DNA of 64,000 bases from an uncultured Litoreibacter sp. (lineage in GTDB: Bacteria > Pseudomonadota > Alphaproteobacteria > Rhodobacterales > Rhodobacteraceae), in the NCBI GenBank assembly GCA_947504205.1, contig CANNGL010000003.1, positions 248,001 to 312,000 on the forward strand, in the 5' to 3' direction. A model generated the notes under the pieces. It saw only the letters and a list, made by a program, of their open reading frames with translations, searched no databases and was not told the DNA's origin. Positions 27,408 through 43,086 of the stretch are shown piece by piece. Position 1 is the stretch's first letter, and each line of letters opens with the position of its first letter. A program made the position numbers and the translations under genes.

Positions 27408-28157
27408 GTGATTGAAGATCCGTTATTTGCCGTACTTCTGACCCTCGTTTTCCTGGTGGCAGGTACGGTGAAGGGAAGTGTCGGCATCGGTCTGCCTACG
27501 ATGGCGATGGGCTTAATGACGTTATTTGTGGATCCTCGGTCTGCAATTGCGATCCTGCTATTACCAATGCTCCTGGCAAATCTATGGCAGGTATATCGCG
27601 CGGGTGAGACGCGTTGCGCAACAATGACTTATCTGCCATTTGGCCTATGCCTTGCATTGTTTGTCGGACTGACAGTTGTGTTGAGCCGGGATGTGAGTGA
27701 TGCGATTCTGATCGGTAGTCTTGGATCGGTAATAATACTGTTTGTTGCGGTCAGCTTGACTCGCTGGGCGCCTCATATTGGTTCTGAGCAAGACAGGTTG
27801 GCGCAAATAGTATTTGGCTCGATTGCGGGCGTAATGGGTGGACTTACTGCCGTCTGGGCGCCACCGATGGCCATTTATCTGGCTGCCAGACAGGTCCCTA
27901 AAGAAGAGTTTGTGCGCGCCAGCGGTTTGCTGATCTCTGTAGGAAGCATCCCTCTGATTGTGGGTTATGTAAGCCAGGGCGTGGTGACCCGGGACTTGTT
28001 TGCGCTTTCTGTATTGGTTCTGGTGCCTACTTTCTTGGGCTTCGCTCTTGGGGAAAAGATCAGGCGGCATTTGTCCGAGGTGCTGTTTCGAAAGGTGCTT
28101 CTCGGGATATTTTTGCTGATGGGTTTGAACCTGCTTCGCCGATCTGTATTCGGCTAG
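27408..28157 (+). CDS. TauE/SafE-family membrane permease
   Basis: A 249-residue membrane protein with about eight hydrophobic segments in two halves, the TauE/SafE (sulfite or anion exporter) form: LVAGTVKGSVGIGLPTMAMGL in the first half and GSIAGVMGGLTAVWAPPMAIYL in the second, which are the paired glycine-rich motifs of the family. The start is a GTG at 27408, preceded by TTCAG, so ribosome evidence is weak. Its stop overlaps the convergent nitroreductase gene by four bases. Cargo cannot be determined. Confidence 0.88.
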   Translation: MIEDPLFAVLLTLVFLVAGTVKGSVGIGLPTMAMGLMTLFVDPRSAIAILLLPMLLANLWQVYRAGETRCATMTYLPFGLCLALFVGLTVVLSRDVSDAILIGSLGSVIILFVAVSLTRWAPHIGSEQDRLAQIVFGSIAGVMGGLTAVWAPPMAIYLAARQVPKEEFVRASGLLISVGSIPLIVGYVSQGVVTRDLFALSVLVLVPTFLGFALGEKIRRHLSEVLFRKVLLGIFLLMGLNLLRRSVFG

Positions 28158-28978
28158 TCCAGTTTGAAACCTTTTTTCCGAATAAATGCACCAAATCCCG
28201 ACCGCTCTGGCTGAGAATACTGACGCGCTTTGTCTTTACTCCATGTGTATTCCGCATCTTCTCCGTAAAGATCGACAGATCTTTGGAACTTGTAGGGCTG
28301 AGCCGTCTCACGCCTTGAGTCATAGTCTTTGATGTTCTCGACAACATCGGCGTCGGAATATGTGTCTTGATGAAATGTCGTGTCTAAATGAATGCGCATA
28401 CTTATCTCGGGCTTTGCCGAAGGATAGCCTACAGCGAGACCCGCAACCGGGAAAACGTGATCGGGTAGGTTGAGGGCATCAGACACACGCTCCGGGTTAT
28501 TTCGGATGGCCGAGATCGGGCAACATCCAAGACCAATGGTTTCCGCTGCGAGTACAAATGCCGAGAGAGCTACTGCGGCATCGACGCTGGCATTGAAGAA
28601 AGCATCCAAATGATCGTTTGCGAAGGGCAGCCCGCGCATCTCATGAAGAAGTCTTTGTCGCTTATTGTTGCCGCAGAAAACAAGCAAGCTGGGCGCGTCG
28701 ACTATCCAGGACTGACCTCTCATGGCCTCGTTTAACTCCAAGCGAATACTGGGGTCTGATACATGAATGATGTCACGTTGCTGGAGGTCGCTTTTGGTCG
28801 GCGAGCTAAGCGCAACCGCCGCCAGTGTTCTGATGACATCGCTCGGGATCGGCTGAGGATCGAAGGTTCGACACGATCCGCGCGCAGCCATATCGATTAA
28901 CTTCGTGGCGTTATCCAATTCTGTGGGGATCGGGATGTTATCCGCAAAGCGTTCGCGAAGTATTTCTGCAAGCTTCAT
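28154..28978 (-). CDS. Nitroreductase-family flavoprotein
   Basis: A 274-residue FMN-dependent oxidoreductase of the nitroreductase fold: RGSCRTFDPQPIPSDVIRTLAAVALSSPTKSDLQQRDI gives the FMN-phosphate arginines, and FVLAAETIGLGCCPISAIRNNPERVSDALNLPDHVFPVAGLAVGYP is the conserved C-terminal block of NfsA/Frp-like proteins. It is divergent from the lyase gene of the catabolic cluster with 116 bases between the starts, so shared regulation is possible. The physiological substrate is unknown. Confidence 0.88.
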   Translation of the reverse strand: MKLAEILRERFADNIPIPTELDNATKLIDMAARGSCRTFDPQPIPSDVIRTLAAVALSSPTKSDLQQRDIIHVSDPSIRLELNEAMRGQSWIVDAPSLLVFCGNNKRQRLLHEMRGLPFANDHLDAFFNASVDAAVALSAFVLAAETIGLGCCPISAIRNNPERVSDALNLPDHVFPVAGLAVGYPSAKPEISMRIHLDTTFHQDTYSDADVVENIKDYDSRRETAQPYKFQRSVDLYGEDAEYTWSKDKARQYSQPERSGFGAFIRKKGFKLD

Positions 28979-29094
28979 CTATCGACCGTCCTTTGAAGAT
29001 GTATCGAGGACATCTTGCTTCCCTAGAAATAAAAAGCCAGCGTATTGAAGGAAAAGCTGGTGGCCCGAAACACTCGCAAAACTGTGGAAGCGCT

Positions 29095-30153
29095 ATGAAC
29101 ACCTTAATTGGAAAAAACCGGCTGTTTGCACCATTGTTTGCCGATCCAGAGATCGCCGCAGTGTTTTCGACGGGTGCTGTTCTCGCACAAATCATTGCCT
29201 TTGAAGTTGCTCTGACAAGGGCTCTTACAGCGTTGCGGCTGATCGAGCCGCAGACTGGTCAACAGGCCATTGAGGCGATGCAAAGCTTCGAGATGACTTT
29301 CGACGATTTCGACCAAGACCTCCAGCGAGATGGTTTGCCCATACCGGCGATTATTGGTCATTTGAAGTCTGCCGCGAGTAAAGAAGTCGTGGACGCAATT
29401 CACGTTTCATCGACCAGCCAGGACGTGATCGACACAGCAATATGTCTAAGCCTGCAATCTGCGAATAAGGTTTTTAAGGCGCGTCTCGATCAAGTAATTG
29501 CCCAGCTTGATGCTCTGGATCAGGCGTTTGGGTCGAACCCTTTGATGGGGCGAACGCGCATGCAGGCTGCTCTTACAATACCCGTGTCGCAACGCTTGAG
29601 AAGCTGGCGATCTGGTTTGCAGAGCGTTGAATCTGATTGGAACTCGATGGTTTCGAAGGTTGAAGTCATTCAGTTTGGGGGGCCAGTTGGTGATCTCCGC
29701 GGCTATGATGGTGCGGCTGAGGATGTAGCTGACCTGATCGCGACTGAGCTTCGTTTGACGATGGTACCGCCTTGGCATACGGATCGCGGTAGGTTTTTGG
29801 AATACGGAGCATTCCTGACGAGACTGGTCGTCAGCCTAGGTAAAATCGGCACGGATGTTTCCCTGATGTCTCAGCAGGGCTTAGATGCAGCTCGGCTTAC
29901 CGGCGGTGGGGGCAGTTCGGCTATGCCTCGCAAAAGTAACCCCATCAAGGCAGAGCTGTTGATGACTCTGACGCGATATATGGCGTCCCTCAACGGAGCG
30001 CTCTTTCAGTCCGGCGTGCACGAACAAGAACGGTCTGGCGTGAACTGGACGTTGGAGTGGCTTGTTTTGCCCTCGTTGGTAGAGTGCGCGGGATGCGCGC
30101 TTAACACTGCAATAGAACTGTTGAATTCAATCGAAGCACTGGGTGAAACCTGA
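29095..30153 (+). CDS. Fumarase/aspartase-superfamily lyase, PcaB-like
   Basis: A 352-residue enzyme with the signature loop GSSAMPRKSNPIKAELL at about residues 273-289, which supplies the catalytic serine in this superfamily, together with STSQDVIDTA and ALTIPVSQRLRSW. The length and the ARLTGGGGSSAMPRKSNP block are closest to alphaproteobacterial 3-carboxy-cis,cis-muconate cycloisomerase (PcaB), but no other pca gene is nearby, and C-N lyases of the same superfamily (adenylosuccinate, nitrosuccinate types) are alternatives. The frame is open from 28993; ATG 29095 after GTGGAAGCGCT is preferred. It is followed by a one-base gap to an FAD oxidoreductase. Confidence 0.88.
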   Translation: MNTLIGKNRLFAPLFADPEIAAVFSTGAVLAQIIAFEVALTRALTALRLIEPQTGQQAIEAMQSFEMTFDDFDQDLQRDGLPIPAIIGHLKSAASKEVVDAIHVSSTSQDVIDTAICLSLQSANKVFKARLDQVIAQLDALDQAFGSNPLMGRTRMQAALTIPVSQRLRSWRSGLQSVESDWNSMVSKVEVIQFGGPVGDLRGYDGAAEDVADLIATELRLTMVPPWHTDRGRFLEYGAFLTRLVVSLGKIGTDVSLMSQQGLDAARLTGGGGSSAMPRKSNPIKAELLMTLTRYMASLNGALFQSGVHEQERSGVNWTLEWLVLPSLVECAGCALNTAIELLNSIEALGET

Positions 30154-30154
30154 C

Positions 30155-31366
30155 ATGGTTCATTTTCCGACAACACCGACGCACAGCAGCTACGACGTGA
30201 TCATCGCAGGAGGTGCGATGTATGGTTCTTCGGTGGCTTGGTGGCTGACGCAACTGAACTTTGATGGTCGTATCTTGGTTGTTGAGAGAGATCCAACCTA
30301 TGAGCTGTGTTCGACATCACATACCAATAGCTGCATCAGACAACAGTTTTCGTCTGAGATTAATGTACGCATCTCTCAGTTTGGCGTCGAATTCATCAGA
30401 AAATTCAAAGACTTTATGTATGACGCACCTGATGCTCCGTCGATCCACCTGCAAAGCTACGGATATATGTATCTCGCCGATAATGCTGAATTCGCTGAGA
30501 CGCTGAAATCCGGGCAATCGGTGCAACGCCATCTTGGTGCTGGCACACGACATATGCGGCGGGACGAAATCGCCAAAGAATATCCGTTTTATAATCTCGA
30601 TGACATCATAGCCGCCAACCACAATCCTGTGGACGAAGGTTACTTTGATGGTGGGTCGATTTTTGAATGGTGGAAACGATCAGCGCGTGCGCGAGGTGTG
30701 GAATTCATCGCTGGTGAGATTGTTGAGCTGGAGATGTCAACGGATGCTCGCCAGGTTGCGTCGGTTGTGCTGCAAGACGGCAGCCGTATCTCATGTGGAA
30801 CTTATGTAAACGCGACTGGGCCAAGGGCCGCGAAGACTGCGGCCATGGCTGGGATTGATTTGCCGGTCGAACCCCGGAAGCGCTACACGTTCATTTTTGG
30901 TGCGGAAAAGCCGTTGGACATGGATTTGCCCCTGACGATTGATCCATCTGGCGTTCACATGCGTTCAGATGGGCAATATTATATGGCGGGTTGCCCCCCT
31001 AACGATGATGAGGCGGTCGCCCCTGATGACTTCGTTGCCGACCATTCGATTTGGGAAGAGAAGGTTTGGCCTGCAATATTTCACCGGATTCCCCAATTTG
31101 ACGCTATCCGGTTGGTGAATTCTTGGGTCGGTCATTATGCGTATAATGTCTTCGATCAGAACGCTGTCGTCGGGCCGCATCCTGATATTGAAAATTTCAT
31201 CTTCGTGAATGGATTTTCCGGGCACGGTCTACAGCAATCTCCGGCGATAGGGCGGGGCGTTGCGGAGTGGATCGCGCATGGATCGTACCAGTCAATTGAC
31301 CTAGCTCCCTTCAGCTATGAAAGAATTATTGAAGGTGAAGTCTTTGTCGAAAAGGCTGTGATTTAA
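30155..31366 (+). CDS. FAD-dependent oxidoreductase (DAO family)
   Basis: A 403-residue flavoprotein of the D-amino-acid/sarcosine oxidase type. The N-terminal dinucleotide motif is VIIAGGAMYGSSVAWWL, then RILVVERDPTY, and the C-terminus has GFSGHGLQQSPAIGRGVAEWI, the FAD-binding end typical of DadA/sarcosine-oxidase relatives. It should oxidise a C-N bond of an amino acid or amine. It starts one base after the lyase stop (an in-frame GTG at 30143 is the alternative) and precedes the GntR gene with its operator, so it ends a two-gene run. Confidence 0.9.
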   Translation: MVHFPTTPTHSSYDVIIAGGAMYGSSVAWWLTQLNFDGRILVVERDPTYELCSTSHTNSCIRQQFSSEINVRISQFGVEFIRKFKDFMYDAPDAPSIHLQSYGYMYLADNAEFAETLKSGQSVQRHLGAGTRHMRRDEIAKEYPFYNLDDIIAANHNPVDEGYFDGGSIFEWWKRSARARGVEFIAGEIVELEMSTDARQVASVVLQDGSRISCGTYVNATGPRAAKTAAMAGIDLPVEPRKRYTFIFGAEKPLDMDLPLTIDPSGVHMRSDGQYYMAGCPPNDDEAVAPDDFVADHSIWEEKVWPAIFHRIPQFDAIRLVNSWVGHYAYNVFDQNAVVGPHPDIENFIFVNGFSGHGLQQSPAIGRGVAEWIAHGSYQSIDLAPFSYERIIEGEVFVEKAVI

Positions 31367-31392
31367 AAAAGGCTCGTCAGAAACTCAATTTG

Positions 31393-31412
31393 TTTGTATA
31401 CAAAATGTATAC
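31393..31412 (+). promoter_or_regulatory. Tandem GTATAC operator upstream of the GntR gene
   Basis: TTTGTATACAAA (31393-31404, perfect 12-bp palindrome) is followed by a second GTATAC at 31407-31412; the two GTATAC cores are 11 bases apart, one helical turn. GntR/FadR-type regulators bind palindromes of the GTATAC kind, and this one lies 15 bases before the GntR start. Autoregulation and control of the downstream genes is the natural reading. Confidence 0.75.
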
Positions 31413-31426
31413 AAAGTGAGTCGTGG

Positions 31427-32131
31427 ATGGCGAGAGATAGAAAATCTTACTGCATGGAAGACCTCAAGATGCGTATCTTGAGCCTTGAAATAGAGCCCGG
31501 CAGCGATCTGGACGAGGTAGCGCTTTGCGATGCTTACTCACTATCCAGAACGCCGCTGCGGGAAGTTTTGCAGCGCTTGAGTGGGGCAGGTTATGTGGTT
31601 CTCACGCAGAATCGTGGAGCAAAAGTTGCATCATTTGATCTGAGCGCGTTGCGGAAGTTTTTTCAGACTGCCCCTTTGATCTATGCGAATATCGCGGCTC
31701 AGGCCGCCGAAAATCGAAAAATGGCTCAGTTGAAGGCGTTGAAGGACATACAAACCGCCTTCACCACAGCGACGCAAAACGATCTTCCGGGCGACGCCGC
31801 GTTACAAAACCATACGTTTCATCAACTTATCGGAGAGATGGCTCACAATCCTTATTTGATGGCCAGCCTTGAACGGATGTTGATTGATCATACGCGTTTG
31901 AGCCAAACGTTTTACCGTCCCGTTTCGAAAGAAGAGCGGACTGCGGTTGCCAAGGCGCTTGATCATCACGACGCGATGATTTCTGCACTTGAGGCTCAGG
32001 AACCGTCGGTCATGATCGACCTCACACTGCAACACTGGGATCTGTCCCGGGATCAAATTGAGAGATTTGTACGCCCCAATCCGTTGCCCTTAGACCTCGT
32101 GTCTCTGGAAGGACTCCGTCATGAAGTTTGA
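31427..32131 (+). CDS. GntR-family (FCD) transcriptional regulator
   Basis: A 234-residue regulator with a winged helix-turn-helix at residues 8-65 (LKMRILSLEIEPGSDLDEVALCDAYSLSRTPLREVLQRLSGAGYV in parts) and a helical FCD ligand domain with HTFHQLIGEMAHNPYL and HHDAMISALEAQEPSVMIDLTLQHWD, which contains the metal-binding histidines of the FCD fold. It most likely senses the pathway substrate and represses its own operon. ATG 31427 is used; an in-frame ATG-less codon at 31394 falls within the operator. Its 3' end overlaps the next gene by 11 bases. Confidence 0.9.
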   Translation: MARDRKSYCMEDLKMRILSLEIEPGSDLDEVALCDAYSLSRTPLREVLQRLSGAGYVVLTQNRGAKVASFDLSALRKFFQTAPLIYANIAAQAAENRKMAQLKALKDIQTAFTTATQNDLPGDAALQNHTFHQLIGEMAHNPYLMASLERMLIDHTRLSQTFYRPVSKEERTAVAKALDHHDAMISALEAQEPSVMIDLTLQHWDLSRDQIERFVRPNPLPLDLVSLEGLRHEV

Positions 32132-33029
32132 AGGCATATACACCCCTTTGGTGACGCCCTATCACACCGATTTCACGTGCAATGAGGACGTTTTGGCGCA
32201 GGCTATTGAGCATCTCATTTCGGCCGGTGTGCATGGCATTATCGTGGCCGGAACCACAGGCGAATATTACGCACAGACTTTCGAAGAGCGTATCTGGATG
32301 ATGGAACACTGTCGGGATTTGATTGCTAACCGCGTCTCGCTGATCGTTGGAACCGGCGCTATACGAACTGAAGATAGTGTCGAATTTGCCAAGCATGCCA
32401 AGACTGCAGGAGCAGACGCCATCTTGGTGGCGACGCCGCCCTATGCTTATCCGACGGGGCGCGAGATAGCGCTTCATGCGCTTGCGATAGATCGTGCCGC
32501 AAATCTTCCCGTGATGCTCTATAACTATCCGGGCAGAATGTCGGTCAACATGGACGAGGAAACGTTGGATCGCTTGGGACGGTCCGCCAATTTCTGCGCG
32601 ATCAAAGAAAGCTCTGGCGATCCGAACCGATTGCATATGCTCGCGCGCGATTACCCTCATATAGCGTTGAGTTGTGGCATGGACGATCAAGCGCTCGAGT
32701 TCTTTGCTTGGGGCGCGCGATCATGGGTTTGTGCTGGGTCAAATTTCGCGCCTGAGGCTCATATCGCGCTTTATCAAGCTTGTGCTGTCGAGGGCGATTT
32801 TACCAAGGGGCGGGCCATTATGTCGGCAATGCTGCCGCTAATGCGGGTGCTCGAGCAAGGGGGCAAGTTCATACAGTGCATCAAGTACGGATTGACCCTT
32901 CGAGGGATAGATGCGGGACCACCCCGCAAACCACTTCAACCGCTCAACAAAGACGACAAGCGTGAGTTGAGCGAGGTGATCCACACCATGAACACCACAA
33001 TCAGGGCCATCACGGGGACAACGCCATGA
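32121..33029 (+). CDS. DHDPS-family lyase (dihydrodipicolinate synthase-like)
   Basis: A 302-residue class I aldolase/dehydratase fold enzyme with FEGIYTPLVTPY, the GTTGE loop (IIVAGTTGEYY), the tyrosine in MLYNYPGR at about residue 134 and the Schiff-base lysine in AIKESSGD at about residue 162. It is probably not the biosynthetic DapA; its place in a catabolic operon suggests a 2-keto-acid aldolase or deaminating dehydratase (compare HypD, KdgD and NanA of the same family). The ATG lies inside the end of the GntR gene and its stop overlaps the ALDH start as ATGA. Confidence 0.9.
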   Translation: MKFEGIYTPLVTPYHTDFTCNEDVLAQAIEHLISAGVHGIIVAGTTGEYYAQTFEERIWMMEHCRDLIANRVSLIVGTGAIRTEDSVEFAKHAKTAGADAILVATPPYAYPTGREIALHALAIDRAANLPVMLYNYPGRMSVNMDEETLDRLGRSANFCAIKESSGDPNRLHMLARDYPHIALSCGMDDQALEFFAWGARSWVCAGSNFAPEAHIALYQACAVEGDFTKGRAIMSAMLPLMRVLEQGGKFIQCIKYGLTLRGIDAGPPRKPLQPLNKDDKRELSEVIHTMNTTIRAITGTTP

Positions 33030-34516
33030 CCGACCTTTTGACCCATGCTGAATATATTGCGATTGCCAAAGATCTAGACCCACCAAGGACGGCCTTTATC
33101 GATGGAAAATTTCGGGCGGGGCGGGGTGCGAAGCTGATTTCTACCAATCCTGCCACAGGCGAAACCATCGCTGAGATTACTGCTTGTAGCAATGAAGATG
33201 TGGACCTCGCAGTGGAGAAGGCAAGGCAGGCTTTTGAGCAAGGCGTCTGGGCCAAACAACATCCTTCTGTGCGAAAAGAAACGCTGATCCGACTCTGCAA
33301 ATTGCTGACGAGAAATCGTCGTGAATTGGCGGTCATGGAGAGTATCGATAGTGGCAAGCCAATCCGTGACTGCGAACAGATAGACCTTCCCGAGACCATC
33401 AACTGTATCAAATGGCATGCAGAACTGATCGACAAAATCTACGATCAAGCTGGCCCCACCGGCGATGACGCTTTGTCGATGATTGTTCGAGAACCAATTG
33501 GAGTTGTTGCCGCGATTTTGCCGTGGAACTTCCCGTTGTTAATGATGGCGTGGAAAATTGGACCCGCTCTGGCGGCTGGAAATTCTGTAATTGTGAAGCC
33601 GGCCGAACAGACGACACTGACTGCGCTGCGCTTGGCTGAGTTGGCCTATGAGGCGGGTATTCCATCAGGTGTTTTGCAGGTCCTGCCCGGCGACGGGCCT
33701 TCGACTGGTGAACCGCTTGGGCGGCATGCTGATATCGATATGGTCAGTTTCACCGGATCAACTGACACGGGGCGTCGTTTCCTCCATTACTCTGCTGATA
33801 GCAATCTGAAGAAAGTCGTTTTGGAATGCGGGGGTAAGAATCCAGCGGTTGTTCTGGGCGATGCTGAAAACCTGGATCATGTGGCCGACCATGTCGTGAA
33901 TGCTGCGTTTTGGAATATGGGTGAAAACTGTTCTGCGACCTCACGCTTGATTGTCCAAAGGCAGATTAAAGCACCGCTTATGGAGCGCGTGCTAGCCCGA
34001 GTCAGGGACTGGAAAACTGGCGACCCGCTAGACCCTGCGAACCACCTTGGTGCACTAATTGACGGCGACCATCTTAGTAAAATCTCTAGTTATCTGAAAG
34101 GTGACGCGGCTACCGGTGGAGAAGCTAACGGTCCTTATGTTGAACCCACGATCTATGAGGTCGATAGGGATAATAAGCTGGCGCAGGATGAAATCTTTGG
34201 GCCCATCTTGAGCGTGATTGAAGTCGACAGCTACGACGAAGCGATAGAAGTGGCCAACGCCACCGAGTATGGCCTTGCTGCGTCGGTATTCACGGCAAAT
34301 GTTCGGCGGGCTATTCGAGCTGCACGCGACATTCGCGCTGGGACAGTTACGATCAATTGCTACGGGGAAGGCGATAGTGCGACCCCCTTCGGGGGATACA
34401 AGCAATCGGGTTTTGGTGGCCGCGATAATGGCATCCATGCGCATGATCAATTTACCGAAACAAAAACGATTTGGGTTGATTTGTCCGACCCCAAGGACGG
34501 AGATCACATCGGATGA
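33026..34516 (+). CDS. Aldehyde dehydrogenase, PuuC-like
   Basis: A 496-residue NAD(P)-dependent aldehyde dehydrogenase with the general base in LECGGKNP (about E267) and the catalytic cysteine in MGENCSATSRL (about C302). The C-terminal stretch ATPFGGYKQSGFGGRDNGIHAHDQFTETKTIW is very like gamma-glutamyl-gamma-aminobutyraldehyde dehydrogenase PuuC of the putrescine pathway. Substrate is likely an amino-aldehyde, or a semialdehyde from the neighbouring lyase reaction. Start and end both overlap neighbours as ATGA, so it is coupled to the DHDPS-like and MttB-like genes. Confidence 0.93.
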   Translation: MTDLLTHAEYIAIAKDLDPPRTAFIDGKFRAGRGAKLISTNPATGETIAEITACSNEDVDLAVEKARQAFEQGVWAKQHPSVRKETLIRLCKLLTRNRRELAVMESIDSGKPIRDCEQIDLPETINCIKWHAELIDKIYDQAGPTGDDALSMIVREPIGVVAAILPWNFPLLMMAWKIGPALAAGNSVIVKPAEQTTLTALRLAELAYEAGIPSGVLQVLPGDGPSTGEPLGRHADIDMVSFTGSTDTGRRFLHYSADSNLKKVVLECGGKNPAVVLGDAENLDHVADHVVNAAFWNMGENCSATSRLIVQRQIKAPLMERVLARVRDWKTGDPLDPANHLGALIDGDHLSKISSYLKGDAATGGEANGPYVEPTIYEVDRDNKLAQDEIFGPILSVIEVDSYDEAIEVANATEYGLAASVFTANVRRAIRAARDIRAGTVTINCYGEGDSATPFGGYKQSGFGGRDNGIHAHDQFTETKTIWVDLSDPKDGDHIG

Positions 34517-36063
34517 GCGTCGATGCTGTTGGTACCGTGCGTCGCGGGCGCGGGGCGCGAAAAGCCGTGCGCCAGAAGCGCGACACAACCATGTTGCCCG
34601 CCCTGAAACGAAATCTTCCGCTCACCGAACCGATGGATCAGGAACAAGTTGAGCGCATTGATACTGCGTCGATGGATGTTCTCGAAAATGTCGGTGTCAT
34701 GTTTCGAGATCCGATTGCCTTGGAGGATTGGCGAAAGAAGGGCGCGAAGGTCGTAGACGAGACGGTTTTCCTTGATCGCGGCTTGGTGCGCGAGTTGATC
34801 ACATCGATCCCGTCATCATTTGTTATCCACGCGAGAAACGATGCGAATAGTCTTCCCTTTGGTGGTGATCACTCGATCTTCGTTCCAATGACTGGCGCCC
34901 CATATTTACGTGATCTGGATGATGTCAGGCGCAACCCTACGCTTGATGATTTGGCGAATTTTCACAAGCTGAGCCATATGCTGCCAGCGATTCATTCATC
35001 CGCGCATCATATCGTTGAGCCCTATGATCATCCGATAAGCCATCGACACCTACGCATTACCTACTCGTCCATGAAACACTCCGACAAGACATTCATGGGA
35101 ATGACGACAAGCCCCAAGAATGCTGCCGACGTCATGGAGATGTGCGCAATCCTGTTTGGCGAAGAGTTTCTTAAGACTCACGCTGTTTGTATTGGAAATT
35201 GCAACGGAAACTCTCCGTTGGTTTGGGATGAGACCATGCTGGGCGCGATGCGTGCTTTTGCCAAGCGCAACCAACCGGTGCTGTGCTCTCCGTTTGTTTT
35301 GGGTGGTGCAAACACCCCGGCTTCGGTTGCGCCCACGGTCGCCCAGCTGAACGCAGAGGCGCTGTCGGCATTAGCTTACACCCAAGTCGTCCGAAAGGGG
35401 ACGCCGGCAATTTATGGCCACTATCTGTCAACTGTATCGATGAAGTCAGGGGCACCAATGGCAGGGACGCCAGAGATCAGCTTGATGAATTTCATGATCG
35501 GTCAGATGGCCCGGTTCTACGATATTCCTTGGCGAAGCTCGAACACTCTGGGTGGGGCAAAGACTTTTGATGCGCAGGCGGGTTATGAAAGCGCAACCAC
35601 GCTGATGTCCGTGTTGATGGCTGGATGTAATTACATATGGCACTCAGCTGGATGGAACGAAGCAGGCATGCATTGTTCGATGGCGAAGTTCGTGGTTGAT
35701 GCAGAGCAATGCGCGATGGGCTACCGGATGGCTGAGGGCGTTAGGTGGGACGATTTTAATGAGGCGATGCAAGCGGTTCGTGATGTAGGGCCGGGCGGTC
35801 ACTATCTTGGTCACCCGCACACGCTCGAGAACTTTCAAAGAGCATATTTTATGCCCGAGATGTTCGACAACAATTCTATCGAGCAATGGCAAGCAGAAGG
35901 CGCTTTAGAGATCAACGAACGCGCGCTGCAGAGGTGCAAGGATCTGTTGAATGAGTACGAAGAGCCGTCCCTTGATCCGGGTATTAATGAAGCGCTGCTC
36001 GCGTATATCGCGCGACGAGAGCAGGAAATACCTGCCGCAGCCGCGCTGAACCAAGACCACTAG
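34513..36063 (+). CDS. MttB-family (trimethylamine methyltransferase-like) protein
   Basis: A 516-residue TIM-barrel protein of the MttB superfamily, with GDHSIFVPMTGAPYLRDLDD, VCIGNCNGNSPLVWDETM, YGHYLSTVSMKSGAPMAGTPEISLMN and GAKTFDAQAGYESATTLMSVLMAGCNYIW. It has no in-frame TAG, so it is not a pyrrolysine trimethylamine enzyme but of the non-pyrrolysine type, whose studied members demethylate glycine betaine or proline betaine and pass the methyl group to a corrinoid protein. No corrinoid protein is in the window. The first 35 residues are basic (RRGRGARKAVRQKRD), unusual for the barrel. It is coupled to the ALDH gene by ATGA. Confidence 0.92.
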   Translation: MSVDAVGTVRRGRGARKAVRQKRDTTMLPALKRNLPLTEPMDQEQVERIDTASMDVLENVGVMFRDPIALEDWRKKGAKVVDETVFLDRGLVRELITSIPSSFVIHARNDANSLPFGGDHSIFVPMTGAPYLRDLDDVRRNPTLDDLANFHKLSHMLPAIHSSAHHIVEPYDHPISHRHLRITYSSMKHSDKTFMGMTTSPKNAADVMEMCAILFGEEFLKTHAVCIGNCNGNSPLVWDETMLGAMRAFAKRNQPVLCSPFVLGGANTPASVAPTVAQLNAEALSALAYTQVVRKGTPAIYGHYLSTVSMKSGAPMAGTPEISLMNFMIGQMARFYDIPWRSSNTLGGAKTFDAQAGYESATTLMSVLMAGCNYIWHSAGWNEAGMHCSMAKFVVDAEQCAMGYRMAEGVRWDDFNEAMQAVRDVGPGGHYLGHPHTLENFQRAYFMPEMFDNNSIEQWQAEGALEINERALQRCKDLLNEYEEPSLDPGINEALLAYIARREQEIPAAAALNQDH

Positions 36064-36108
36064 CAATAGCATGCCGATTTCCTCCAATATATTGCGGATG
36101 GGTAGACC

Positions 36109-37443
36109 ATGAAGGTCAGTAAACTGCCCAAAGATCCTGGCCCCTGTGCGTGGAACGCGATCTTGGCGCCTGCAGCAGAAGCCGACGCGCTAGTTGGTGA
36201 ACAAACTGCAGATTGGCTAATTGTTGGAGCCGGGTTTGCAGGATTGTCTGCTGCAAGGCAGCTTTCGCTGCTGCATCCTCACGGCAGAATCGTGGTGTTA
36301 GAGGCAGGACGAGTTGCGGAAGGGCCAGCTGGTCGAAATTCTGGGTTCATGATTGATCTACCGCATGATCTGGCATCGGAGGATTATGCCGGTCAGCTGC
36401 AAAGTGATATCGCGCAAACCCAAGCTAATCGCGAAGCAATCCGCTTTGCCGCCGAAATGGCAGAAGCGTTTGAGCTGACAACAGAGGCATTTTCGCAAAG
36501 CGGCAAGATCAATGCAGCCGCTACCCAAAAGGGCGATCGGCACAATCAAGAATTTGCCAACCATCTTGCTGAAATGGGCGAAAGCTACGAGATGCTCGAT
36601 GCCTCTCAGATGCGCGATCTTACCGGAACCGATTACTATCACAGTGGCCTCTCCACACCGGGGACCGCGATGTTGCAACCTGCCCTTTATGTAAGGGGCA
36701 TTGCCAAAGGTCTTCGAAGCAACCGACTGTCGATCTACGAGAACAGTGCTGTTCTAACGCTTTCAAAAAGCAATTGTGACTGGGTGGCAAAGACCCGTTC
36801 TGGGCAGATTACAGCGCCAAAGGTTATCCTTGCGGTAAATGGACATATCAATAGCTTTGGGTATTTTCACCAAAAGCTCATGCATGTGTTTACCTATGCC
36901 TCAATGACGAGCTCCATGCGCGATGAAGAGGTTTCGGCGCTGGGCGGAGCTCCTGTTTGGGGTGTCACCCCCGCTGATCCGCTGGGGACCACGGTTCGGA
37001 AAATAACAGGGAGCGGTGGCACCAGGATTGTTGTGCGCAATCGTTTTACCTACGAACCCACAATGGAAGTATCAGGCGCCAAGCTGGCCGAAGTTGCGAA
37101 AACGCATGATGCCTCCTTTCGGGCGAGATTCCCTATGCTCGCCAATCTTGAGATCGAATATCGTTGGGGAGGGCGACTTTGCCTAAGCCGAAACAACGTG
37201 CCCGCATTTGGCGAAGTCGAACACGGGGTATTTTCTGCATGTTGTCAAAATGGGTTGGGGACCACGAAGGGAACTTTGGGAGGCATGGCGGCCGCACAAC
37301 TGGCTTCTGGCCAAAAAACAAATTTGGTCGGACTGTTGCAATCACTCGAGGCGCCTTCTCATCTGCCGCCTGAGCCATTGATGAGTATTGGTGCGACCGC
37401 CCGTTTGCGATATGGAGAGTGGAAAGCTGGACGGGAGCTCTGA
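36109..37443 (+). CDS. FAD-dependent oxidoreductase, PuuB-like
   Basis: A 444-residue flavoprotein of the glycine oxidase/DAO group with the dinucleotide motif WLIVGAGFAGLSAARQL near residue 38 and VLEAGRVAEGPAGRNSGFMIDLPHDLASEDY. These blocks resemble gamma-glutamylputrescine oxidase (PuuB). The C-terminus has WGGRLCLSRNNVPAFGEVEHGVFSACCQNGLGTTKGTLGGMAAA. A ribosome site GGATGGGTAGACC precedes the ATG. Pairing with a PuuC-like aldehyde dehydrogenase suggests amine oxidation to an aldehyde and on to an acid; the substrate is not known, and PuuA (the glutamylating enzyme) is absent. Confidence 0.9.
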   Translation: MKVSKLPKDPGPCAWNAILAPAAEADALVGEQTADWLIVGAGFAGLSAARQLSLLHPHGRIVVLEAGRVAEGPAGRNSGFMIDLPHDLASEDYAGQLQSDIAQTQANREAIRFAAEMAEAFELTTEAFSQSGKINAAATQKGDRHNQEFANHLAEMGESYEMLDASQMRDLTGTDYYHSGLSTPGTAMLQPALYVRGIAKGLRSNRLSIYENSAVLTLSKSNCDWVAKTRSGQITAPKVILAVNGHINSFGYFHQKLMHVFTYASMTSSMRDEEVSALGGAPVWGVTPADPLGTTVRKITGSGGTRIVVRNRFTYEPTMEVSGAKLAEVAKTHDASFRARFPMLANLEIEYRWGGRLCLSRNNVPAFGEVEHGVFSACCQNGLGTTKGTLGGMAAAQLASGQKTNLVGLLQSLEAPSHLPPEPLMSIGATARLRYGEWKAGREL

Positions 37444-37449
37444 TCATAG

Positions 37450-37818
37450 GTGTATGGGGAAGACAGCTTCTTTACCTTGAACTACGCAGAGCGGATCGGA
37501 CTTGTATTAATCAGTCTCACCATGAGTGTGCTGATGATCTGGGGAAACATTCGATGCTGCCACAATAAGCCGCTACGCGCAAAGCTGCTCATAACTATCG
37601 TTCTTTTTGGTCTGTTCGTTTGGTTGTCGCCTCAGATCTACTACGCCTACTATCGAGTGATCATAGAGGGCTTGCCTCGACAGTTAGTTGTGGCGTGGCC
37701 CCCACCAATTCTCGACATACTTCGATACACAGTTTTTTTGGGGCCTGGCACGCTTTCGGCACATGGCCAAGGATTGCTATTCTGGCTCATGCTGGGTTTC
37801 GCTGTCTTTCGGCGTTAA
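37450..37818 (+). CDS. Small membrane protein of unknown function
   Basis: A 122-residue protein with hydrophobic segments at about residues 15-31, 43-65 and 98-118. The start is a GTG seven bases after the PuuB-like gene, with AGGTG overlapping; an ATG within the first helix (MSVLMIWG) is the alternative. No family is recognised. The gene continues the catabolic cluster and its last 42 bases overlap the convergent BciB-like gene. Because part of it is forced by overlap, the call is moderate. Confidence 0.55.
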   Translation: MYGEDSFFTLNYAERIGLVLISLTMSVLMIWGNIRCCHNKPLRAKLLITIVLFGLFVWLSPQIYYAYYRVIIEGLPRQLVVAWPPPILDILRYTVFLGPGTLSAHGQGLLFWLMLGFAVFRR

Positions 37819-39009
37819 CCCGTATGGCTTTACCAGCTTCCAGATGTGATCTGGAATCATGGTCCGCATTCGTTTGGGCTCATCTCTTCTTAGATGGAGG
37901 ACTGTTTCTGCAGCCTTCATTTCCAGCCGAGCGCGAGCAAATTCGAGACCCCTGGGCCCGACTCTCGGCATCAACCAAGCCATTACTCCGCGCAAGAAAT
38001 TCGGCATTCGCCTGAGTGGCAGACCACCTGCTGCAAGCCTCGTGTTTTTTATGAAGCCTGCGACCGAGGATGCCCGTTTGCCTGCACTTGTCAGGGGTTC
38101 CAAGATCAGATCATCGCCAAGCAGATCAACGATCTCCTGACCGCGCCCATTTCGTACTATGAGCCATTGCTGCCCAGTTCCCGCCATGTATCCGACTGTC
38201 ACGTCTGCAAGCGCGTTCGTGTAATCGACACAGGTCTTGCAGGTTGTTGAGAAGAAGTCTGAGGGCAGATCTGAAAGCGGAAGCTTCAGGAATGGGATTT
38301 CTTGAATGCGCCCATCTGAAAACCTCAACTCGACATGGTAGTCAGCCCGAAATTCCAAATATGTGATGTCATCCGGACGGTCAGAAATCAGCTCAAGGAA
38401 AGCATGAAAATTCTTGGTTGTTGTGTTGTCAGAACACGGCGTTCCGACGACATAGATCTTCTCAAATCCTAGCTGCTTCTCAATATGGCGCAGTGCGTGA
38501 ATTTGGCAGGGTATGCCTACAATACACAGACGCTTGAGGCCAGCGTCGGCTGCGGGTTCGAGCAAGGCGAGTAAGGGCGCGAATCCCATTCTCATGCCGC
38601 GTGCTTGAGCCATATTTTCCGGGTCGGTGACAAGTATTGGTCTGGGTTTCCAACGATCATTGGGGTCGGGTCCGATGCAAAGGACACCATCGACGTATCG
38701 GGCTTCCAACAATCTCGTCGCAAGCTCTGTCGTGATACCGGTCCATTGAGCGTTGGATTTTGGGGTTTTTAAGCGGGCGCGATACATCGCGTCGAATGGC
38801 CCGAAGAATAATTCATCACCGTGTATTGAGCGAGAACGACCATGGGATAAGCGCTCGGAGCTAGGATAGTCTGGTGCAATGAACTGACAGGCTGTGCCGC
38901 ATGATTTGGCGATCTTCATGCGCGACAAGCCGCAATCGGTGCAGAGATTGCGATGCAATGCAGGTGCAAAGTCATCGTCATAATCTGTGCTTGGTGGTGC
39001 AGATGACAT
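37777..39009 (-). CDS. bciB: Coenzyme F420 hydrogenase beta-family protein, likely 8-vinyl reductase BciB
   Basis: A 410-residue iron-sulfur flavoprotein of the FrhB/BciB/HCAR family. The N-terminal cysteines LCTDCGLSRMKIAKSCGTACQF (C23, C26, C37, C41) and the central CKTCVDYTNALADVTVGYMAG (FrhB C-terminal domain) are typical. In phototrophs the family member BciB reduces the 8-vinyl group of divinyl (proto)chlorophyllide with ferredoxin, so I read it as BciB; it could be another FrhB-family reductase. It lies about 28 kb from the photosynthesis cluster end, in the opposite direction. ATG 39009 is preferred over a TTG at 39036. Confidence 0.68.
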   Translation of the reverse strand: MSSAPPSTDYDDDFAPALHRNLCTDCGLSRMKIAKSCGTACQFIAPDYPSSERLSHGRSRSIHGDELFFGPFDAMYRARLKTPKSNAQWTGITTELATRLLEARYVDGVLCIGPDPNDRWKPRPILVTDPENMAQARGMRMGFAPLLALLEPAADAGLKRLCIVGIPCQIHALRHIEKQLGFEKIYVVGTPCSDNTTTKNFHAFLELISDRPDDITYLEFRADYHVELRFSDGRIQEIPFLKLPLSDLPSDFFSTTCKTCVDYTNALADVTVGYMAGTGQQWLIVRNGRGQEIVDLLGDDLILEPLTSAGKRASSVAGFIKNTRLAAGGLPLRRMPNFLRGVMAWLMPRVGPRGLEFARARLEMKAAETVLHLRRDEPKRMRTMIPDHIWKLVKPYGLTPKDSETQHEPE

Positions 39010-39235
39010 ATCCGAAGGCTCTGCTACAGCTAACAAAGTGTCAACTTTATCTGACGCCGAAGATACGCTTCATTGTGGCTAGCTCGATGGGCAGAGGTTG
39101 CTGGAGTCGTGGTTCCGCCCGAAACCAACAGCCAATCCGGCAAGCGATCCCATTTGAGGTCTTTCCCCCGGTGCGCTTTTGGGGGTATCAGGCCGCGTCT
39201 GAGTTGAGACTCACTCGAAAAAGGATCCGAAGCAT

Positions 39236-41442: not shown

Positions 41443-42420
41443 TCAGCCTCCTGTAAAAGTGCGTGCTACGGCTATGTAGATGGGAATGCCCAAGGTCAGA
41501 TTAAATGGAAAAGTGACGCCAAGCGACATCGTCAGATAAATAGACGGGTTGGCTTCTGGTAAGGCCACACGCATAGCGGCTGGGACGGCGATGTAGGACG
41601 CCGATGCAGACAATGTCATCAGGAGTGCAACGCCGCCGGACGAAAGGCCAAGCGCCAGACCTGCTCCAAGGCCAAAGACGGATCCGATCAATGGCATTAG
41701 CACACCGAAAGCCAACAGGCCAGGCGTCAAACTGCTTGCGCTGTTTCGCAAACCACGCCCTGCAACCAGCCCCATGTCCAATAAAAACAGACACAACACG
41801 CCTTGAAATGGTGTAACCACAAAGCTTTCGATTTTGGCCATGCCATCCTGACCGGTGATACCGCCGATCAAAAATGACCCAACGAGAAGAACAATAGACC
41901 CATTCAGCAATATTTCCCGCCACAAACCCGCATCCGGCGCTTGCTGGTCTGACTTGCGCGACACCAACCAAAGAGCTGACAGGATGGCTGGTGCCTCCAT
42001 GACCGCCGCGACCGCGACCATGTAGCCTTCGGAGATAATACCACTCCCTGTCAGTGCAGATGTGCTGGCTACGAAGGTCACGATAGATATAGAACCGTAA
42101 TGCGCGGCGACTGCTGCGGCGTCCATAGTGCTAAGGCGACTCATGATCCTCAACAGAAAAAAAGCGATAAAGGGAATGAAAGCCGAAAGTATCATCCCAG
42201 CGATAAGACTGAGAACGAGGCGGGCGTCTAAACCGTGATCGGCAACAGAAACTCCGCCTTTGAAACCTATCGCGAACAACAAATAGATCGACATTGCTTT
42301 GGCTGCCGCCTCGGGAAATGTCAGATCGGAGCGGGCGAACGCCGCTGCAACCCCGAGAATGAAAAAGAGGATCAACGGCGAAAGCAGGTTCTCCATCGCC
42401 AATGAGAAGATACCGTCCAT
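41443..42420 (-). CDS. sbtA: Sodium-dependent bicarbonate permease SbtA
   Basis: A 325-residue membrane protein of the SbtA/DUF897 family with about ten hydrophobic segments in two inverted halves. The family blocks LLFAIGFKGGVSVADHGL and AAHYGSISIVTFVASTSAL in the first half and LFLLDMGLVAGRGL and TLSASASYIAVPAAMRVALPEANPSIYLTMSLGVTFPFNLTLGIPIY in the second are present. SbtA imports bicarbonate with Na+. It lies between a carbonic anhydrase gene and sbtB, a known arrangement for inorganic-carbon concentration. Confidence 0.93.
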   Translation of the reverse strand: MDGIFSLAMENLLSPLILFFILGVAAAFARSDLTFPEAAAKAMSIYLLFAIGFKGGVSVADHGLDARLVLSLIAGMILSAFIPFIAFFLLRIMSRLSTMDAAAVAAHYGSISIVTFVASTSALTGSGIISEGYMVAVAAVMEAPAILSALWLVSRKSDQQAPDAGLWREILLNGSIVLLVGSFLIGGITGQDGMAKIESFVVTPFQGVLCLFLLDMGLVAGRGLRNSASSLTPGLLAFGVLMPLIGSVFGLGAGLALGLSSGGVALLMTLSASASYIAVPAAMRVALPEANPSIYLTMSLGVTFPFNLTLGIPIYIAVARTFTGG

Positions 42421-42438
42421 GCGACTACTGCCCTTTAA

Positions 42439-43086
42439 TCAGACGTGCACAAAACCTTGTTCGGGAATGTAGTGCTCTAAGCTGCCTGCACCAATGTCGG
42501 TGAACAAGCCGTGCAAGCTCAGGTCGCCGCTCTTGACCGCGTCTGCGACAAAAGGGAAGCCATTCAGATTTTCCAAGGAAATCAAGACAGCTTCTTTTTC
42601 CAAAGCCGCGCGACGAGCTGCTTCATCGTCCAGACCTTTGACGCGTTCATAGCCAGGCTTAAGAATATCCATCCACCGACCAACAAAGCTGGTCTTTTCA
42701 TTTAACTCAGGTGCTTGGCCAGAGCACATGTCATAGCAGCCTGCGACGCCGCCACAGTTCGAGTGTCCCAAAACAATGATGTGCGCGACGTTCAGGCTGG
42801 TGACGGCATACTCTACAGCCGCGGATGTGCCGTGGTGATCGCCGTCGGGCAGATAAGGCGGCACCAGATTGGCGATATTTCGGTGGATGAAAAACTCGCC
42901 CTGTTCGGCACCGAAAATCGATGTGACGTGCACGCGGCTGTCGCAACAAGATATTACCATGGCGCGCGGGCGCTGACCCTCAGAGGCCAACCGCCGATAC
43001 CACGGTTCATTTTCGTTGAAGGTCGTTGCTTTCCAGCCGTGGTAGCGCTGAAGCAAATAAGTTGGAAGAGGTTTGATTATGTCCAT
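42439..43086 (-). CDS. Beta-class carbonic anhydrase
   Basis: A 215-residue zinc enzyme that interconverts CO2 and bicarbonate. The zinc ligands are C47 with the dyad Asp-Arg in SCCDSRVH, and H108 and C111 in LGHSNCGGV. Length matches beta carbonic anhydrases. It has no signal peptide, so it acts in the cytoplasm, where it would turn bicarbonate from SbtA into CO2 (or the reverse). It is first in the operon with sbtA (18 bases between) and sbtB. Confidence 0.95.
   Translation of the reverse strand: MDIIKPLPTYLLQRYHGWKATTFNENEPWYRRLASEGQRPRAMVISCCDSRVHVTSIFGAEQGEFFIHRNIANLVPPYLPDGDHHGTSAAVEYAVTSLNVAHIIVLGHSNCGGVAGCYDMCSGQAPELNEKTSFVGRWMDILKPGYERVKGLDDEAARRAALEKEAVLISLENLNGFPFVADAVKSGDLSLHGLFTDIGAGSLEHYIPEQGFVHV

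Follow-up and report, generated by a model that had tools for sequence, protein, structure and literature searches.

Bacteria degrade 4-hydroxyproline, also after the breakdown of hydroxyproline betaine, with enzymes of the D-amino acid oxidase (DAAO), dihydrodipicolinate synthase (DHDPS), and aldehyde dehydrogenase (ALDH) families, as set out in the available part of PMC4113996. Here, we compare this trio with a locus in a 64,000-nucleotide stretch of DNA (the window) from an uncultured Litoreibacter sp. (Rhodobacteraceae; GenBank assembly GCA_947504205.1, contig CANNGL010000003.1, positions 248,001 to 312,000), where a gene for a corrinoid methyltransferase of the MttB superfamily lies in one operon with a GntR-type regulator and members of the same three superfamilies. 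On gene context and homology, we give slightly better than even odds (a probability of about 0.55) that this is a GntR-controlled operon for the catabolism of 4-hydroxyproline betaine (N,N-dimethyl-4-hydroxyproline), with MttB as the corrinoid demethylase. The catabolic role, the N-demethylation by MttB, and the likely betaine substrate that an initial annotation of the window had proposed are upheld by inference from context. To our knowledge, the substrates of most non-pyrrolysine MttB proteins of this type are unassigned, and the group is large: in one scan, 587 stretches encoded relatives of the window MttB, and this genome alone carries seven MttB-family genes. If our assignment is true, it would supply a substrate for one widespread MttB clade and tie corrinoid chemistry to a proline-type betaine in aerobic ocean bacteria, and the operon with its operator would be a marker of where hydroxyproline betaine is turned over; radiolarian holobionts of the marine plankton are a reported source of this compound (PMC11965087, available part).

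How does the window operon compare with the pathways already described? The hydroxyproline trio shares with it the three superfamilies in one operon after GntR, and the window proteins are 53 to 62% identical to R. leguminosarum members encoded near a curated epimerase. The two differ in that no epimerase was found in the window or its genome and in that the window MttB lies between ALDH and the oxidase; the window DHDPS is only 26% identical to the DHDPS encoded on S. meliloti pSymB. In the Hpb pathway of Paracoccus, which also occurs in Pelagibaca, the epimerase HpbD, a Rieske demethylase, and HpbA precede the trio. The likeness would lie in betaine demethylation feeding the trio, and HpbD adjoins the window's MttB clade in relatives. 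However, the corrinoid MttB of the window operon stands in place of the Rieske oxygenase and HpbA encoded in stretches of P. pantotrophus, R. leguminosarum, and Peteryoungia, and the window's genome is without a close match to HpbD or HpbA.

Two described systems resemble the MttB side of the operon. According to the available part of PMC12478193, Ruegeria pomeroyi has the glycine betaine methyltransferase MtgBCD/E and a split methionine synthase, with corrinoid and pterin proteins common to glycine betaine demethylation and methionine synthesis. The reference list of that paper names MtpB, a member of the MttB superfamily and the proline betaine demethylase of Eubacterium limosum. Like the R. 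pomeroyi system, the window MttB would be expected to work with stand-alone MtgC-like, DUF1638, and MtgD-like proteins encoded elsewhere; this is a likeness of organization rather than of compared MttB sequences, and the context here points to another betaine. The likeness to MtpB, which is by description only, would lie in the proline-type betaine, although MtpB comes from a gut acetogen. Among the papers listed by our literature search, which left most subscription journals outside, there was no report linking MttB with hydroxyproline betaine; an earlier one is possible, above all in work on R. sphaeroides.

MttB and the trio form a conserved operon

We checked the open frames of the window and their translations against the initial list and searched the proteins with Pfam and NCBIfam profiles. 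Going from GntR through DHDPS and ALDH to MttB, each frame runs into the next, with 11, 4, and 4 bases in common, as first described. DHDPS, ALDH, and the second of two DAO-family oxidases (DAO2), the superfamilies of the hydroxyproline trio, are all co-located and codirectional.

Conservation was examined in a collection with one genome per species by taking the best 80 of the 587 stretches with window-MttB relatives and looking for 18 other window genes around each fetched MttB, which is present by construction. The main count was restricted to the 53 loci in which MttB is flanked by 5 kb or more in each direction. GntR, DHDPS, ALDH, and DAO2 all lay beside MttB in 48 of these (GntR in 49/53; DHDPS, ALDH, and DAO2 in 50/53 each), one or more of them being missing in L022, L048, L050, L052, and L054. 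Across all 80 loci, many of them on short contigs, the full core was found in 60. The loci are mostly from Rhodobacterales, and shared descent contributes to the co-occurrence, for which the flanking genes serve as an internal control: LeuB, Asd, and carbonic anhydrase recurred in 3/53 loci, from Planktomarina-type genomes that share the wider neighborhood, and TauE and FrhB in 0/53. These data reveal that MttB, GntR, DHDPS, ALDH, and DAO2 are a real conserved operon of ocean bacteria.

A perfect tandem palindrome, TTGTATACAAAATGTATACAA, lies at 31394-31414, between the first DAO-family oxidase gene (DAO1) and GntR. It is the sole match in the window at up to three mismatches, compared with a mean of 0.00 matches over 100 shuffles. 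The genome holds no second perfect copy; a single further site, at C3:607542, differs from it at three positions and led to no transporter assignment, and the pattern read backwards has no match in the genome. In 61 of 65 loci, a 320-base segment around the projected start of GntR contained the GTATAC core, whereas its frequency in the remainder of the same loci (38 occurrences in 1.23 Mb) gives an expectation of 0.0099. None of the 12 stretches with plasmid-borne homologues had it upstream; the region inspected was that before GntR in 9 and, for lack of an annotated GntR, that before DHDPS in 3. We infer that GntR binds this palindrome, and the operon is probably self-regulated. Because the operator lies between DAO1 and GntR, it marks the start of the operon in the window and sets it apart from the genes before it. 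The GntR frame is open from 31394; since 31394-31414 is the operator, translation more likely starts at the in-frame ATG at 31427.

Several relatives of the trio lie beside epimerases and betaine transporters

The initial annotation had found no known pathway that matched this combination of genes. Our comparison indicates otherwise for the core, which matches the hydroxyproline trio, and several relatives have an epimerase and a betaine transporter beside it. In A. tumefaciens CFBP5877 (L124) and R. leguminosarum WSM1325 (L111), the order is GntR, DHDPS, ALDH, FAD oxidase, a betaine/proline ABC transporter, and 4-hydroxyproline epimerase, the last scoring 565 and 575 bits, respectively, on the curated model (cut-off, 376). 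In P. alcaliphilus (L125), annotation and BLAST place the trio beside the same type of transporter and an epimerase. The Peteryoungia trio is accompanied by a proline-racemase-family gene, ProVWX, a Rieske oxygenase, and a HpbA homologue 74% identical to the annotated Paracoccus HpbA. The A. tumefaciens trio proteins score on the same NCBIfam models as those of the window, whose DHDPS, ALDH, and DAO2 are 62, 62, and 53% identical to the epimerase-linked proteins of R. leguminosarum and 69, 67, and 51% identical to those of C. sphaeroides (L109), which are linked to HpbD. R. sphaeroides 2.4.1 grows on trans- and cis-4-hydroxyproline (PMC4113996, available part), and stachydrine breakdown has been studied in P. 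denitrificans and R. sphaeroides (PMC11337228, available part).

We viewed 13 DHDPS-bearing plasmid stretches, chosen from 40 matches listed out of 1555 records. Seven of these trio stretches hold a 4-hydroxyproline-type epimerase or HpbD (L109, L111, L113, L114, L124, L125, and L128), and nine hold a betaine/proline-type transporter, namely, the same seven together with L110 and L112 (BCCT type). Among the MttB loci, that of R. aestuarii G21610-S1 (L035) encodes an OpuAC-type binding protein and transporter a single gene away from GntR on its upstream side, and a family-3 binding-protein transporter is encoded downstream in L033 and L041. Candidate corrinoid partners are encoded elsewhere in the genome, and such a partner does not have to lie within the cluster. 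A tree of 83 DHDPS proteins, read only as an unrooted split because its two outgroups were very long and unusable and its root meaningless, set 13 rows (12 plasmid borne plus L031) apart from 70 mostly chromosomal rows with support of 100/99, and rows linked to HpbD fell on both sides (7 and 3).

As a DHDPS reference we also tried the protein from the epimerase-bearing stretch of S. meliloti pSymB, which we take to be HypD, and rejected it on account of the 26% identity; the argument from the trio therefore rests on epimerase linkage and not on orthology. The window protein is outscored on the DHDPS family by the product of C3:441615-442466 (207 versus 279 bits), presumed to be the genome's DapA.

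MttB adjoins HpbD in some relatives and has candidate corrinoid partners

The window MttB far exceeds the cut-off of 25 bits on PF06253. Its 516-codon frame is uninterrupted by any in-frame stop or UAG, and it is therefore a non-pyrrolysine member, as previously called. It is 78 to 89% identical to the 80 listed relatives and 75 to 76% identical to the C. sphaeroides protein.

In C. sphaeroides 2.4.1 pB (L109) and L. thetidis (L113), the trio faces an MttB-HpbD-SDR-SDR run, with ProVWX beside GntR; the L. thetidis HpbD is 72% identical to genes annotated hpbD. HpbD also follows MttB in five Roseovarius loci, directly in L014, L017, L019, and L051 and after one gene in L016. The L051 protein has 4e8g, 2pmq, and 4h2h, presumably the characterized HpbD structures, as its best PDB matches (E below 1e-130), and a protein 46% identical to Paracoccus HpbA is encoded inside the L019 operon. 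Plasmid scans listed 30 MttB matches out of 197 records and 40 HpbD matches out of 40, with at least 20 records in common. MttB and HpbD lay within 75 bases of each other in 17 of 20 shared records and within 7 kb in the other 3; the 17 include 7 plasmids of C. sphaeroides, each ~114 kb, that are probably duplicates of a single one. For 36 chosen loci, 35 genomes holding the window's MttB clade were searched at E 1e-70, and HpbD was found in 7, inside the fetched locus in 6 (L068 included) and elsewhere in R. nubinhibens, whose MttB locus (L054) is without the trio. The stretches viewed from R. leguminosarum, Peteryoungia, and P. pantotrophus encode HpbA and a Rieske oxygenase and gave no match to MttB. 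MttB may thus be an alternative first demethylase where some relatives appear to use an oxygen-dependent Rieske enzyme; no Rieske oxygenase was found among the Pfam-scanned neighbors at 21395-43086. As a separate observation, the MttB-HpbD run of C. sphaeroides pB abuts the sulfonate genes pta and xsc (L109:16036-20124).

The genome encodes one stand-alone MtgC-like corrinoid protein (contig C1, L101:6258-6986), which scores 195.5 bits on the NCBIfam MtgC model (cut-off, 370). DUF1638 and homocysteine-methyltransferase genes are close to it, and an MtgD-like pterin-binding protein gene is on the same contig. By analogy with R. pomeroyi, these MtgC-like and MtgD-like proteins are candidate partners that the window MttB may share.

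Proposed pathway for 4-hydroxyproline betaine

How might these enzymes work together? MttB would pass one N-methyl group to the MtgC-like corrinoid protein encoded elsewhere, from which the pterin-binding MtgD-like protein would deliver it to tetrahydrofolate. The flavoprotein DAO2 would then oxidize N-methyl- or free hydroxyproline to the pyrroline, the DHDPS-family lyase would open and deaminate 1-pyrroline-4-hydroxy-2-carboxylate to alpha-ketoglutarate semialdehyde, and ALDH would convert this to alpha-ketoglutarate. Acting at the tandem operator, GntR may keep the operon repressed as long as neither the substrate nor an intermediate is present. The substrate, the order of steps, the stereochemistry, the removal of the second methyl group, and the pairing with partners are all proposed here from context and homology.

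Several observations weigh against the assignment to 4-hydroxyproline betaine. The window's genome has no match to the proline-racemase family (PF05544) at E 0.001, none to HpbD above 36% identity, and none to HpbA above 32% over a long stretch; the operon has no transporter, and neither a transporter nor a racemase lies inside the wider cluster, as had been noted. HpbD had no match in 28 of the 35 genomes searched, and most therefore lack the epimerase that marks the known betaine route. Among the 30 listed MttB plasmids, 10 gave no HpbD match (e.g., those of Yoonia, P. inhibens M633, L. caerulea, and C. sphaeroides CP147414), and 20 of the 40 HpbD records fell outside those 30. The viewed stretches of Shinella (L122), P. 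inhibens DOK1-1 (L123), and P. pantotrophus (L121) hold HpbD without the trio, that of Mesorhizobium (L115) holds HpbD and MttB without it, and the L. thetidis trio has a Rieske oxygenase gene nearby in addition to MttB. Neither such an epimerase nor a clear betaine transporter was seen with L126, L127, L129, and L130, four of the 13 trios viewed. The window DHDPS has its best NCBIfam score on dapA, below the cut-off, in addition to its low identity to the pSymB protein. ALDH scores 495 bits on PuuC and 424 on BADH compared with 326 on GudD (alpha-ketoglutarate semialdehyde dehydrogenase), all below the cut-off. Because the genome gave no close match to the epimerase, HpbD, or HpbA, HpbD was missing from most genomes searched, the DHDPS is distant, and the ALDH is more PuuC/KauB-like, we keep our confidence near one half.

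Alternative readings of the operon

Could the same operon serve another N-methylated imino acid, such as a hydroxyproline stereoisomer outside the known routes or a compound of the 3-hydroxyproline or pipecolate type, with HpbD and the SDR pair only widening the range in some species? The many genomes without HpbD agree with this, as does the best curated match of DAO2, L-pipecolate oxidase AmaA (129.7 bits, below the cut-off of 600). So does the family of SDR genes, often paired, that contributes 51 genes to 29 of 87 clustered loci. Nevertheless, two of the species viewed carry the trio together with a curated 4-hydroxyproline epimerase, and trios linked to HpbD fall on both sides of the main split of the DHDPS tree; we regard another betaine as unlikely. 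On the 4-hydroxyproline betaine reading, species that have only the core and no HpbD would use either an isomer that needs no inversion or an as yet unknown epimerase.

A tentative form of the 4-hydroxyproline betaine pathway, which we consider unlikely as a whole, is a modular, epimerase-free corrinoid route. MttB, DAO2, DHDPS, and ALDH would suffice to take one stereoisomer of 4-hydroxyproline betaine to alpha-ketoglutarate, with DAO2 and DHDPS acting on the N-methyl intermediate and methylamine being released. Additional enzymes would widen the range: HpbD would invert C2, paired SDRs would invert C4, and a HalD-like enzyme, encoded at the head of the operon in Planktomarina-type loci, would hydroxylate proline betaine. 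The stereo-inversion role of the SDRs and the proline-betaine entry role of the HalD-like protein, a candidate proline-betaine hydroxylase, are proposals. The HalD-like 2-oxoglutarate dioxygenase is encoded in five fetched loci (39.9 bits; cut-off, 26), and its HxD-type motif is kept as judged by eye. Its gene immediately precedes GntR in L057 and L066 (L066:5993-6775), precedes it with one gene between in L043, and immediately precedes DHDPS in L048, a locus in which GntR was not detected; in L068, a distant homologue (36%) lies downstream.

Other candidates were rejected. A tandem trio of enolase-family proteins (C2:770508-773799) is 32 to 36% identical to HpbD and scores best, below the cut-off, on cis-3-hydroxy-L-proline dehydratase. 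A P5CR-like gene found in nine loci had no BLAST match at 1e-10 to the P5CR-like protein of the Paracoccus hpb cluster. Nothing that we examined ties the operon to homarine, and the available part of a 2026 AEM paper mentions in this regard only that Mgd takes part. Separately, the three tandem enolase-family genes belong to a second betaine-like cluster (L108; C2:764000-782000), which also encodes a DAO-type oxidase of 815 codons, a zinc alcohol dehydrogenase, and a Rieske oxygenase.

In a retro-aldol variant, the DHDPS-family enzyme would act after demethylation and ring oxidation, splitting the opened 2-oxo-4-hydroxy acid into pyruvate and N-methylaminoacetaldehyde, which the PuuC/BADH-like ALDH would convert to sarcosine. 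Pyruvate aldolases are among the members of the DHDPS family, and the window protein aligns with a solved DHDPS in the region of the Schiff-base lysine, with residue roles as we take them to be. The preference of ALDH for PuuC- and betaine-aldehyde-type models and its good matches to KauB and PuuC-type structures fit this chemistry as well. However, ALDH and DHDPS proteins of the same NCBIfam profile adjoin the curated 4-hydroxyproline epimerase, and in that setting the published route runs through alpha-ketoglutarate semialdehyde (PMC4113996, available part), so that we consider sarcosine formation quite improbable.

It is highly improbable that MttB is another glycine betaine or trimethylamine methyltransferase hitchhiking with an unrelated imino-acid operon. 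The genome's seven MttB-family genes, the Mesorhizobium MttB that has HpbD and no trio, and the placement of MttB on the strand opposite the trio in C. sphaeroides and P. inhibens M633 would allow it. However, none of the other MttB proteins of its genome exceeds 42% identity to the window MttB, whose gene is part of the trio operon in most of the loci mapped and is beside HpbD in at least 17 plasmid records. Because it is unlike the other MttB proteins and its context is of the hydroxyproline type, glycine betaine demethylation in the manner of MtgB is only a weak rival to the demethylation of 4-hydroxyproline betaine. At least two of the other MttB genes adjoin frames of ~800 codons that resemble oxidases (L105 and L106).

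Neighboring genes and other features of the window

The initial annotation had placed nine genes in one cluster. Their open frames match the coordinates in Table 1, and Pfam backs every family name except that of the small membrane protein, for which neither a Pfam nor an NCBIfam model matched.

Table 1. Genes and putative operator of the MttB locus (positions in the window)
Feature	Position	Strand	Evidence
Nitroreductase	28154-28978	-	Open frame; Pfam supports family name
PcaB-like protein	28993-30153		Open frame; Pfam supports family name
DAO1, first DAO-family oxidase	30143-31366		Open frame; Pfam supports family name
Putative GntR operator, perfect tandem palindrome TTGTATACAAAATGTATACAA	31394-31414	+	Two GTATAC cores 11 bases apart
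GntR/FCD-family regulator	31427-32131 (probable ATG start; open frame from 31394)	+	Pfam GntR and FCD
DHDPS-family enzyme	32121-33029	+	Pfam DHDPS, 207 bits
ALDH, proposed alpha-ketoglutarate semialdehyde dehydrogenase (PuuC/KauB-like subfamily)	33026-34516	+	Pfam, NCBIfam, and structure matches
MttB-superfamily non-pyrrolysine corrinoid methyltransferase, proposed hydroxyproline-betaine demethylase	34513-36063	+	Pfam MTTB (PF06253), 711 bits
DAO2, FAD-dependent DAO-family oxidase, proposed (N-methyl-)hydroxyproline oxidase	36109-37443	+	Pfam DAO
Small membrane protein	37450-37818		122 codons, GTG start; no family match

Co-occurrence in other genomes, which had been put forward as a check on the cluster, bore out only the five core genes; the nitroreductase, PcaB, DAO1, and small membrane protein genes were each found in 0/53 loci and look like unrelated neighbors of the operon. 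Across all 80 loci, DAO1 was found in one (L040, on the other strand, 65% identity) and the nitroreductase, PcaB, and small membrane protein in none. That all nine genes form one new pathway can hardly be credited: the PcaB and DAO1 frames have 11 bases in common and 27 bases separate the end of DAO1 from the GntR frame, but the four genes are absent from the loci counted, the conserved operator sits between DAO1 and GntR, and the intradiol-dioxygenase genes expected to partner PcaB lie elsewhere.

PcaB passes the curated NCBIfam model PRK05975 (380.6 bits; cut-off, 371), its single further match in the genome has an identity of 23%, and an adjacent pair of intradiol-dioxygenase-family genes is found on another contig (C5:349505-350439). 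On these grounds, the simplest reading is that PcaB is probably an ordinary protocatechuate gene apart from its partners. The best matches to DAO1 elsewhere in its own genome are 22 to 29% identical.

Past the operon, the small membrane protein gene lies tail to tail with a gene at 37777-39036 (minus strand) for a protein resembling the beta subunit of F420 hydrogenases/dehydrogenases (FrhB_FdhB), which stands in an apparently alphaproteobacterial chromosome with no obvious partner among the scanned neighbors. Farther on, at 41443-43086 (minus strand), a gene for an SbtA-type sodium-dependent bicarbonate transporter adjoins a carbonic anhydrase gene.

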